Below the pieces are notes generated by a model. That model was given only the letters and a program-made list of their open reading frames with translations. It was not told the DNA's origin and did no database searches. From positions 1 to 21,357 of IMG/VR virus record IMGVR_UViG_3300030099_001401: DNA of 21,357 nt; one strand, written 5' to 3'. This document shows, piece by piece, positions 463 through 7,412 of this stretch; positions within the stretch are counted from its first letter, which is position 1, and every line of letters starts with the position of its first letter. Position numbers and translations under genes: made by a program. The stretch comes from a virus.

Positions 463-1227
463 ATGAGATTATTAATAGATGCAGACTTCATAGTATATAA
501 GTGCTGTGCAGCCTGCGAAACAGAGATAGATTACGGAGAAGACGTTATATTTGTTACATCTAACTTTTCTGACGCATATAAAGCCGTAACGAACGAAATA
601 TCTAACTTACAAACAATATTCGGCGATTTCGCCAAACCAATACTCTTTTTTAGTGACTCTAAGAATTTTAGGAAAAAAATTTCCCCAGATTACAAGGGTC
701 ATCGAAATAGAAAGAAGCCTTGCGGATACAAACGTGTCATACGTAACCTAGAGTTACAGTATGAAGTTATTATCACGCCATGGCTTGAAGCTGATGATGC
801 AATGGGCATCTTTGCTACACAGTTCCCGGGAAATATTATTGTCTCACCTGACAAGGATATGAGACAGATACCCGGCAAGTTATATAATTTAGAAGATACC
901 ACCACCATCACACCAGAAGAGGGTGCTCAATGGCATCTTATACAAACATTAGCTGGCGATCAGACTGATGGTTACAGCGGAGTACCCGGTATCGGTGTTA
1001 AGAGAGCCGAGACACTATTTAAAAGAGAGGGGTACAGTTGGGCTACAGCCGTAGGAGCATTTCAAGATAAAGGATTGACTGAAGAAGATGCTTTACTAAA
1101 TGCAAGGCTAGCTAGAATACTTACCATAGATGACTATGATACCAAATCAAAAACCCCAATCCTCTGGGCACCAGAACCCACTTATGAAGTTGACAGTGGA
1201 GCAGGACTTCAAGATGAGAGTCATTGA
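463..1227 (+). CDS. T7 gp6-like 5'-3' exonuclease
   Basis: A 254-residue FEN/5'-nuclease family protein that removes RNA primers and degrades host DNA in T7-like phages. Metal-binding acidic residues stand in the expected order: D6 and D8 in MRLLIDADF, D65 in FFSDS, E109/D111/D112 in LEADDAMG, D130/D132 in SPDKDM, D166 and D169. The helix-hairpin-helix DNA-binding segment is TDGYSGVPGIG (168-178), very close to the TDGYSG segment of T7 gp6. I chose the ATG at 463 because it gives the canonical short N-terminus before the first beta strand; the frame is open further upstream but overlaps the polymerase. The 3' end overlaps the next small gene by 44 bases. No clear Shine-Dalgarno is seen. Confidence 0.93.
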   Translation: MRLLIDADFIVYKCCAACETEIDYGEDVIFVTSNFSDAYKAVTNEISNLQTIFGDFAKPILFFSDSKNFRKKISPDYKGHRNRKKPCGYKRVIRNLELQYEVIITPWLEADDAMGIFATQFPGNIIVSPDKDMRQIPGKLYNLEDTTTITPEEGAQWHLIQTLAGDQTDGYSGVPGIGVKRAETLFKREGYSWATAVGAFQDKGLTEEDALLNARLARILTIDDYDTKSKTPILWAPEPTYEVDSGAGLQDESH

Positions 1228-1354
1228 AGACCAGTTAAGAAAGAACTATGATAAGAAGGAAGATGTAATTACTGTCTTCCTTGCATTACAACGACAAAAC
1301 TACGCATTATCTAATGCACTCAAGAACTTTATAGAAAATACTATTGTGATTTAA
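1184..1354 (+). CDS. nblA: Small NblA-like protein (candidate viral phycobilisome-degradation adaptor)
   Basis: A 56-residue protein starting MKLTVEQDFKMRVIEDQL. Seen: an EQxFKxRVxEDQ block near the N-terminus, an acidic/basic linker, then a second helix with ALQRQNYALSNALKN. From family knowledge, NblA proteins are 50-65 residues long, form two helices, and carry LSLEQxFKLRVxxDQV followed by LxxxxRQxxxRxNxYKxLL; the two align without gaps. NblA bridges phycobilisomes and the Clp protease so that light-harvesting pigment proteins are degraded, and cyanophage versions have been reported. The ATG at 1184 keeps the whole block; a later ATG at 1214 has a better Shine-Dalgarno (AGGA, 7 bases upstream) but would cut off the EQxF motif. 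The gene overlaps the exonuclease and ends 1 base before nrdA. The similarity is by eye; an unrelated small helical protein remains possible. Confidence 0.55.
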   Translation: MKLTVEQDFKMRVIEDQLRKNYDKKEDVITVFLALQRQNYALSNALKNFIENTIVI

Positions 1355-1355
1355 A

Positions 1356-2735
1356 ATGTCTAACAGCTTAATCTCCCGCACTGGACGGGTACAGTCTTGG
1401 ATAGATGATCCTACATCAAGGCTGCCCGTATCATGCACAACTTTCGTGGTAGAAGATACTATGGAAGGCGACAACGGCATCGAAGCTAGCTGGAGGTTTG
1501 CGAGTCATGCACTACGTTATGGTGCAGGCTGTGCTATCCACCTATCTAAGCTTAGACCAGCAGGCGCAACAAATGACAAAGGACTGGTAGCCACTGGGCC
1601 AGTCAGCTTTGGTAAAATATATTCAGCACTCAATGAAACACTCAGACGTGGTGGTGCTTACAAAAATGGTGCTATTGTACTACACCTTGACCTTGACCAC
1701 CCAGATGTGGTCGACTTTATTACAGCCTCCCGCTCCGAGCTGCCTTGGGTCAAGCGATGCGTCGATATTGACGCTGACATGTGGGAAGGAGCAACTAATG
1801 ATGTAAAAGAGTCTTTAATTTATGGAATCAAATCAGGAGATGTCTGGCTCAACAAAATCAGACACACAGAATCCGGGGAGCGTATCTATGGGAACGTCTG
1901 TCTTGAAGTATACTTGCCCTCACGTGGCACTTGCTTGTTACAGCATGTCAATCTCGGTGCCTGTACTCTCGACAACTTACAAGAGGCTTTCGTATCAGGC
2001 ATGTCCCAGTTGTGTGATCTCCATGGCCGGACAGGTGTTGGAGAATCTGGAGAATACCTTACCCCAGAAATCGACAGACAAGTCGGGCTTGGAGTGTTGG
2101 GTCTTGCCAACTTCCTCAGACGTTACAGCATCTCCTACGAAGAATTTGGAGAAGCATTACGAAAAGTTAACCTCGGACATTCAGCAAACGACGCAGCTGG
2201 ACTTGCCGCTTGGGGACTGAATACAGCTATCTTTGAAGCAGCACAGATAGCTAGACAACATAACATGGTAAGGGCGTTCGCTATTGCACCCACTGCCAGC
2301 TGCAGCTATCGCAGTAGAGACCTAGACGGCTTTACATGCACACCCGAGATAGCACCACCAATAGCTACAACCGTAGATAGAGATTCCGGCGAGTTCGGAG
2401 TAGAAAGAGTAGACTACGGCGACGTTGAGATAGCAAGTAAAGTAGGATGGGACGCATACAAGCGTGTAGCAGACGAAATTATGACGATGCTCGATAGGAC
2501 TGGACTACTTCACGGATACAGCTTTAACAGCTGGAGTGATGTAGTAGAATACAATGAGGAATTTATAGAGGAGTGGCTTGAAAGTCCACAGACCTCTTTG
2601 TATTACAGCCTTCAGGTAATGGGTGATGTTCAGGATAAGTCTGACGCTTATGCAGCGCTAGCAGACACTGACATTAACAGTTACTTAGACGGTATATTAA
2701 ATGATAATAAAATTGAATGTGACTGCGAACAATGA
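1356..2735 (+). CDS. nrdA: Class I ribonucleotide reductase, alpha (catalytic) subunit
   Basis: A 459-residue catalytic subunit that reduces ribonucleotides to deoxyribonucleotides for phage DNA synthesis. Active-site residues are visible: C27 (SCTTF) and C203 (GACTL) as the redox pair, N180, C182 and E184 in NVCLEV, the phosphate-binding APTASCS near 311-317, and C455/C457 (ECDCEQ) as a C-terminal shuttle pair. Adjacent Y416-Y417 (TSLYYSL) match the tyrosine dyad that passes the radical from beta to alpha, a class I hallmark; this argues against the older class II (B12) label used for such cyanophage genes. It is much shorter than E. coli NrdA (761 residues) and starts directly in the catalytic domain, so the ATP cone that gives dATP feedback inhibition is missing. 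It overlaps nrdB by 4 bases (ATGA), implying coupled translation. Confidence 0.9.
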   Translation: MSNSLISRTGRVQSWIDDPTSRLPVSCTTFVVEDTMEGDNGIEASWRFASHALRYGAGCAIHLSKLRPAGATNDKGLVATGPVSFGKIYSALNETLRRGGAYKNGAIVLHLDLDHPDVVDFITASRSELPWVKRCVDIDADMWEGATNDVKESLIYGIKSGDVWLNKIRHTESGERIYGNVCLEVYLPSRGTCLLQHVNLGACTLDNLQEAFVSGMSQLCDLHGRTGVGESGEYLTPEIDRQVGLGVLGLANFLRRYSISYEEFGEALRKVNLGHSANDAAGLAAWGLNTAIFEAAQIARQHNMVRAFAIAPTASCSYRSRDLDGFTCTPEIAPPIATTVDRDSGEFGVERVDYGDVEIASKVGWDAYKRVADEIMTMLDRTGLLHGYSFNSWSDVVEYNEEFIEEWLESPQTSLYYSLQVMGDVQDKSDAYAALADTDINSYLDGILNDNKIECDCEQ

Positions 2736-3454
2736 GAAAACATCCTTATCAAACATTACTAGAAAGAAAAAGAACATGGACACCAGTTGTCCCTACAAAA
2801 GGAGAGGTAAAATACGGTGCTGAAGAAACCATCAAACGTGCTCTCGCAATACGTCATATGGAGCTACCAGTTGGAGAATTTATTTCTCAAGGCTTGGAGA
2901 AGGAAGTCCCGCAAACAGCGAGGACACTTCTTGAGTCAAACGTACAAGACGAGATTAAACATGATCTCGCTTTGGGCTACATTGTTGACGCCCACGGTGC
3001 AGATCAGCAAGCAGAACTCGAAGCTTTAAGATTAAGAGATGCTTGGATTGCACACCCTGATCATACTATCACAAAGGCACTCGTTGCAGAGCGAGCTATA
3101 TTCTTTGTTTTACTGCCTTTCTTTAGGTTTAATGGTGATGCTGCTCTCAGAACAGTATCAGCTGATATATCCAGAGATGAACAGATCCACGTTGCAACAA
3201 ATAGCCTTGTATGTGCTGAGCTGGGTCTTAATCCTAGCTCTTCTTTGGATAAGCTTCGGAAGGCAACTATTAATTGGATAGTACAACCACTAGGCATTAA
3301 TACTGACGATAAATATTTAGACAAAAAATTTTGGCTGGATGCGAGCGATCAGTTAATGTATCAAGGGAAAGCCCCACAGTTTTCCGACACAAGAGCAGCT
3401 CGCATGCCAGCATTTTTTGAACATGCAAACACAAATCTCCCCCAGTACGCTTAG
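2732..3454 (+). CDS. nrdB: Class I ribonucleotide reductase, beta (radical-generating) subunit
   Basis: A 240-residue ferritin-like protein. Two ExxH metal-binding pairs are visible: E74-x2-H77 (EIKH) and E150-x2-H153 (EQIH), plus E120 (VAERAIFF) and a candidate first ligand E44 (HMELPVGEF), giving the six-ligand dimetal set. In E. coli NrdB the radical Tyr lies seven residues after the first ExxH Glu; here that position (81) is Leu, with the nearest Tyr at 83. This suggests a tyrosine-independent radical or an unusual subclass. The protein is far shorter than the ~375-residue E. coli subunit. Tyr239 near the C-terminus could serve the beta-to-alpha radical path. Published work on phage P-SSP7 described just such an overlooked beta subunit next to the alpha gene. 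The ATGA overlap with nrdA supports a stoichiometric pair. Confidence 0.85.
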   Translation: MRKHPYQTLLERKRTWTPVVPTKGEVKYGAEETIKRALAIRHMELPVGEFISQGLEKEVPQTARTLLESNVQDEIKHDLALGYIVDAHGADQQAELEALRLRDAWIAHPDHTITKALVAERAIFFVLLPFFRFNGDAALRTVSADISRDEQIHVATNSLVCAELGLNPSSSLDKLRKATINWIVQPLGINTDDKYLDKKFWLDASDQLMYQGKAPQFSDTRAARMPAFFEHANTNLPQYA

Positions 3455-7187: not shown

Positions 7188-7412
7188 ATGTATACTACCC
7201 ACAACGAACTTATGATTACTACCGAATACGGTAAACAAAATATTTTTCCTACCGAAACTCCAGCGAGAGTTATTCCTAACTACCCTAAAAACACCAACCC
7301 TATTATGACACACGAAGCAGAAAGATTTAATGGCTGGGCAGCAATGCTCGGATTCGTAGCAGCCGTAGGCGCATACGCAACAACAGGACAAATCATACCC
7401 GGCATTTTTTAA
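7188..7412 (+). CDS. hli: High-light-inducible protein (Hli), chlorophyll-binding stress protein
   Basis: A 74-residue protein with one transmembrane helix at the C-terminus. The chlorophyll a/b-binding motif is visible as E45-x-x-N48-G49-W50-x-A52-M53-x-G55-F56, followed by VAAVGAYATTGQIIPGIF, the typical end of picocyanobacterial and cyanophage Hli proteins. The Arg of the classical ExxNGR motif is Trp here, a form I remember from other Hli proteins. Hli proteins sit in the thylakoid membrane, bind chlorophyll and carotenoid, and protect photosystem II from excess light. The start is uncertain: the ATG at 7188 gives 8 extra residues over an in-frame ATG at 7212 (MITTEYGKQN), and neither has a clear ribosome binding site. 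The stop abuts the psbA ATG directly. Confidence 0.93.
   Translation: MYTTHNELMITTEYGKQNIFPTETPARVIPNYPKNTNPIMTHEAERFNGWAAMLGFVAAVGAYATTGQIIPGIF

Follow-up and report, generated by a model that had tools for sequence, protein, structure and literature searches.

The window, as we call the whole stretch of DNA analysed here, is a 21,357-base virus record with the gene set of a T7-like cyanopodovirus, comprising exonuclease, ribonucleotide reductase (RNR) large and beta subunits, connector, scaffold, high-light-inducible protein (hli), psbA, capsid, tail and internal proteins. Between the exonuclease and the RNR genes, 56 codons and a stop are open on the plus strand in a frame different from that of the exonuclease (Table 1). 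A sequence-only reading of the window had placed a 56-residue gene here, overlapping the exonuclease and preceding RNR, and the coordinates agree with this (1184-1354, with the exonuclease stop ending at 1227 and the RNR ORF beginning at 1356, 1 nt past the stop of the small gene). The overlap with the 3' end of the exonuclease amounts to 92 nt, or to 44 nt with the shorter reading of the small gene. The MazG/gp32-type gene found between the small gene and RNR in most isolate relatives is missing from this slot in the window. Promoter-like matches near the small gene were weak and little above chance. With regard to the RNR genes, the beta-like protein (2732-3454) had no Pfam match, and the large subunit next to it is labelled class II in the records of P-SSP7 and S-TIP37; RNR class labels are inconsistent across phage records.

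Table 1. Features of the window around the nblA-like gene and photosynthesis genes further downstream
Feature	Position	Strand	Basis
T7-like 5'-3' exonuclease	463..1227	+	PF02739 E 6.5e-10; PHROG 107 E 5.3e-64
nblA-like gene in its most likely form, 72 aa (start ATG1136, stop TAA1354)	1136..1354	+	start conservation
Variable 16-residue N-terminal extension, Pro/Gly-containing	1136..1183	+	low-confidence in model
NblA-like core, 56 aa	1184..1354	+	PF04485 E 5.8e-4; PHROG 27006 E 2.4e-16; AF2 helices
RNR large subunit	1356..2735	+	PF02867 E 5.4e-19; PHROG 367 E 6.9e-51
RNR class Ia beta subunit	2732..3454	+	PHROG 6799 E 4.2e-131
High-light-inducible protein (hli)	7188..7412	+	PHROG 178 E 1.5e-26
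psbA (photosystem II D1), 359 aa	7413..8492	+	82% DNA identity to P-SSP3/P-SSP2 psbA

Overlap with another gene, frequent lack of annotation in the records, and the lack of a clear ribosome-binding site by eye upstream of either ATG1136 or ATG1184 would all fit a chance open frame within the exonuclease region rather than a gene. The substitution pattern makes this explanation extremely improbable. In the part of the small gene that lies past the exonuclease stop, 33 unique close relatives gave pS of 0.58, pN of 0.11 and dN/dS of 0.107; none of the 33 had an in-frame stop, and both other forward frames were interrupted by stops in every one of them. Within the core overlap, the third codon positions of the exonuclease, which are the second positions of the small gene, were frozen (0.091 differences, against 0.39-0.41 upstream), while the exonuclease-frame wobble was still variable over the extension at 1136-1183. 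The dN/dS ratio and the frozen wobble positions together rule out a chance ORF for practical purposes. Judged by these substitutions, the ORF is a real, conserved gene that has been selected as a protein. In one relative, a TAA following 'SNAL' cuts the frame short within the second helix, which may mark a pseudogene or a sequencing error.

Conservation was also informative about the start of the gene. An ATG at codons 0-2, around position 1184, was present in only 9 of 72 relatives, and elsewhere the codon aligned to ATG1184 is ATA, ACG, TTA, CTG or the like, even in one relative that is identical from residue 2 onward. An in-frame upstream ATG at about codon -16, corresponding to ATG1136 of the window, was found in 68 of the 72. 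All 36 close relatives have this ATG, with the exonuclease wobble base T1137 unchanged among them, although variation is seen at 10 of 11 comparable wobble sites of the exonuclease, and PSSP7_019A of P-SSP7 is annotated with the equivalent start. Because ATG1184 is rarely conserved, we prefer ATG1136 as the true start, which most likely gives a product of 72 aa with an N-terminal extension whose length differs among relatives. A start at the internal M11 (position 1214) was rejected too: several relatives have L or I at this place, and the EQ motif would be deleted.

PF04485, the NblA family, was the sole Pfam family that matched the window protein. The score of this match, 20.7 bits, lies under the curated cut-off of 25 bits, and the protein taken alone was also under the NCBIfam cut-off. 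Other members scanned singly gave scattered results, with the S-TIP37 (28.8 bits) and S-SRP01 (25.2 bits) orthologues above the PF04485 cut-off and the P-SSP7 member without any Pfam match; PF04485 matched 30 of 36 diverse family members. A narrow profile made from 28 host NblAs gave a probability of just 34% and did not beat some of the shuffles; these 28 sequences were similar ones and the profile too narrow, and widening the host set remedied this. With the diversified profile, built from 28 close and 25 divergent sequences of cyanobacterial genomes, the window ORF ranked first of the 179 ORFs in the window (E 5e-7, 22-23 bits), compared with 11.7 bits for the best of 5,000 shuffles. Among 10,800 shuffles of family members, none scored at or above the family median. 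Profile-profile comparison by hhalign between the phage family and the diversified host NblAs gave a probability of 93.8% (E 1.8e-7), and the reversed control gave 0.2%. The best identity to any host NblA was about 31%. As the window protein stays below a cut-off that its family, taken together, does reach, these comparisons support calling it an NblA homologue rather than a curated member of PF04485. The Pfam search that had been proposed along with the NblA assignment thus returned the right family below its threshold; the assignment itself is supported by profiles in both directions and by the predicted fold described below, although the single protein scores under the cut-off and structural searches gave no match to an NblA structure.

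The window protein matched PHROG 27006, whose slot was exonuclease-[x]-RNR in all annotated regions inspected. This family is listed as of unknown function; its members from S-TIP37, P-SSP7, S-CBP3 and the window identify it as the cyanopodovirus NblA family, and it thereby gains a likely function.

Alignment with host and phage proteins bore out the motif residues that the sequence-only reading had pointed to. The N-terminal L-(S/T)-x-E-Q-x-F motif is present as L3, T4, E6, Q7 and F9, and together with R12, Q38, N44 and K47 it coincides with common NblA residues. E6 and Q7 were invariant in 36 phage sequences, compared with E in 53 of 53 and Q in 52 of 53 host NblAs, and L3 is nearly common to both groups. 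The match is not gapless, as had been claimed, since about 2 residues are inserted between the helices (positions 22-23) relative to host NblA. A column that holds Lys in 40 of 53 host NblAs, and so is not invariant even there, has Glu in the window protein and Lys in 10 of 36 phage members. The window belongs to a subclade, 17 of the 36 rows, from which the Trp of the C-terminal 'KW' and the tail of other phage members are missing; a C-terminal Trp is not universal among host NblAs either. The divergent C-terminal half may hint at a changed substrate side, but host NblAs vary there too and the hint is suggestive only.

An AF2 model of the 56-aa core contained helices at residues 5-21 and 26-53 (pLDDT 88.6, pTM 0.68), for which an NblA-type helix-turn-helix fold is predicted. 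The 72-aa form gave a poor model (pTM 0.36), with the extension unstructured at pLDDT of about 50, and Foldseek/VIA-align found nothing with it. The same search with the 56-aa model returned unrelated helical proteins only (Z <5) and no NblA chain; two-helix folds give little signal in such searches, and this outcome speaks neither for nor against NblA. Of the structural expectation set out beforehand, the two helices of the monomer were predicted, and an NblA structure among the Foldseek matches was not found. Cyanobacterial NblA (PF04485; PDB 2qdo, 2q8v, 3cs5) resembles the window protein in its length, in the motif residues listed above and in the two helices predicted here, and differs from it in that identity is at most about 31%, in the 2-residue turn insertion, and in that the window protein has Glu for the common C-terminal Lys. 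The window gene, unlike its cyanobacterial counterparts, is overlapping and N-terminally extended.

By tblastn, relatives with 46-59% identity were found in 37 phage records, in many of which the gene is unannotated or called 'hypothetical protein', just as had been anticipated for a gene of this kind. In IMG/VR, at least 270 stretches encode a relative. The 37 records with an orthologue were exactly the 37 with the closest exonucleases, and no tblastn match was obtained in the next T7-like cyanophage clade (P-SSP10, 9515-10a, NATL2A-133, S-TIP28, SS120-1, S-CBP42, Syn5, P60). In the records inspected, the homologue always lay at the exonuclease end, upstream of RNR and often with a MazG/gp32-type gene between. 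Marine T7-like cyanophage NblA (PHROG 27006; S-TIP37, S-CBP3, P-SSP7) shares with the window gene this slot, the overlap with the exonuclease and an LTxEQ...ALQxQ...N core, with about 46-55% identity to the isolates; the window subclade differs in that it stops right after the second helix, without the 'KWP' motif and tail.

Viral NblA genes are already known, and Nadel and colleagues reportedly found in 2025 that roughly one in three T7-like cyanophages of the ocean carries nblA. P-SSP7, P-SSP2 and P-SSP3 have psbA together with the orthologue in the same slot, and P-SSP7 has hli as well; the combination of psbA, hli and nblA noticed earlier in the window was thus correctly recognised but is not new. 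Earlier, nblA was predicted in 14 cyanopodovirus isolates forming one cluster (Nadel et al. 2019, Environ Microbiol Rep 11:848, as cited in PMC9602691), and function was reported for oceanic viral NblA (Nadel et al. 2025, Nature 648:434, as summarised in PMC12892361 and also cited via PMC13386980). Both PMC9602691 and PMC12892361 cite viral NblA proteins as degrading the antenna. The freshwater phages Ma-LMM01 and PaV-LD likewise carry viral NblA, but they are other phage types, and in a published tree their nblA genes lie far from the cyanopodovirus cluster (PMC9602691). The window gene is a further environmental example, and what is probably new is the subclade without the C-terminal 'KW', in a probable Prochlorococcus phage.

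The window has a GC content of 39.8%, and the isolates closest to it are P-SSP2, P-SSP3, P-SSP7 and NATL1A-7. The exonuclease is 71% identical to that of NATL1A-7, psbA is 82% identical to that of P-SSP3/P-SSP2, and the early region is also Prochlorococcus-podovirus-like. No tRNA that could serve as a host clue was found in the window, and the P-SSP2 record gives Synechococcus as the host. Taken as a genomic signature, these resemblances indicate that the host is probably Prochlorococcus, and they do not support the phycobilisome-containing Synechococcus that the sequence-only reading had hinted at. Prochlorococcus has been reported to have neither phycobilisomes nor nblA (PMC7439483), which puts the substrate of the window protein in question.

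As an adaptor, NblA delivers antenna protein to the ClpC-ClpP protease (PMC7966870, PMC7760959), with an N-terminal motif that binds ClpC and a C-terminal motif that binds phycobiliproteins (PMC4103541). Because of its family membership, the window protein may be assigned the same role, and we give a probability of roughly 0.8 to the reading that the ORF encodes a viral NblA, an adaptor of ClpC-ClpP for antenna degradation during infection. By inference from the family, the small helix-turn-helix protein would most likely dimerise, the conserved motif L-T-x-E-Q-x-(F/L)-K in its N-terminal part would bind the host Clp chaperone ClpC, and its second helix would bind an antenna protein of the phycobiliprotein type. 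ClpC-ClpP would then degrade the antenna during infection, which could free amino acids and cut light absorption, and the phage's own D1 and Hli could meanwhile keep photosystem II going or in repair. By analogy to Ma-LMM01, in which nblA is expressed early (PMC4103541), early expression together with RNR is plausible. Weighing against this reading are the single-protein scores below cut-offs, the low best identity to host NblAs, the Glu in place of Lys, the absent Trp, and a probable host group without phycobilisomes.

Two other explanations take up these points. The protein could be helical and conserved among cyanopodoviruses but serve a function unrelated to that of NblA, for instance as an accessory factor of a nuclease or RNR, and have come to look like NblA by convergence. 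Its location in a nucleotide-metabolism block with exonuclease, MazG and RNR neighbours would suit such a protein, as would the sub-threshold scores, the P-SSP7 member without a Pfam match and the lack of NblA among Foldseek matches. We consider it unlikely, given the profile-profile probability with its clean reversed control, the shuffles that never reached the family median, the L-(T/S)-x-EQ-x-F motif found where host NblAs have it, and published work in which viral NblA was predicted and its function tested (cited in PMC9602691 and PMC12892361). The RNR neighbourhood is no argument against NblA, because nblA of Ma-LMM01 also overlaps an RNR gene (PMC4103541).

The other explanation accepts homology to NblA and changes the target. 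A homologue that keeps the ClpC-binding half could have been retargeted, in a phycobilisome-free Prochlorococcus-type host, to another protein; candidate substrates are remnant phycoerythrin, the chlorophyll antenna Pcb and proteins unrelated to either. We put this possibility forward, candidate substrates included, only tentatively. It would accommodate an invariant N-terminal motif beside a C-terminal half that has diverged (the Glu and the lost 'KW' tail), the GC, psbA and exonuclease evidence for Prochlorococcus podoviruses, and the reported lack of phycobilisomes and nblA in that host. Against it, the host is itself inferred, other phage members also have E or other residues at the Lys column, and the Trp varies among host NblAs as well. 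The wider proposal, that podoviruses of phycobilisome-free Prochlorococcus use an NblA with an intact ClpC-binding and an altered substrate half to redirect Clp to a non-phycobilisome target (Pcb, remnant phycoerythrin or other), is a speculative one that we regard as rather doubtful.

An overlapping ORF that records of many marine podoviruses often leave unannotated is thus confirmed as one for a protease adaptor of the NblA type. Light-harvesting complexes of the host are reportedly degraded by viral NblA, and PMC12892361 cites an estimated global loss of light capture of as much as 5%. An NblA with a changed C-terminus in Prochlorococcus-like phages raises the question of what is degraded in a host without phycobilisomes. 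In genomes of the picocyanobacterial host family, we found no clear chromosomal orthologue, and the only strong match was a phage-type contig in a Prochlorococcus assembly. Some contigs deposited as bacterial, from Prochlorococcus assemblies (among them Prochlorococcus sp. AG-363-G03) and from other assemblies, also contain nblA-like loci of phage type, which suggests infection of Prochlorococcus or contamination.
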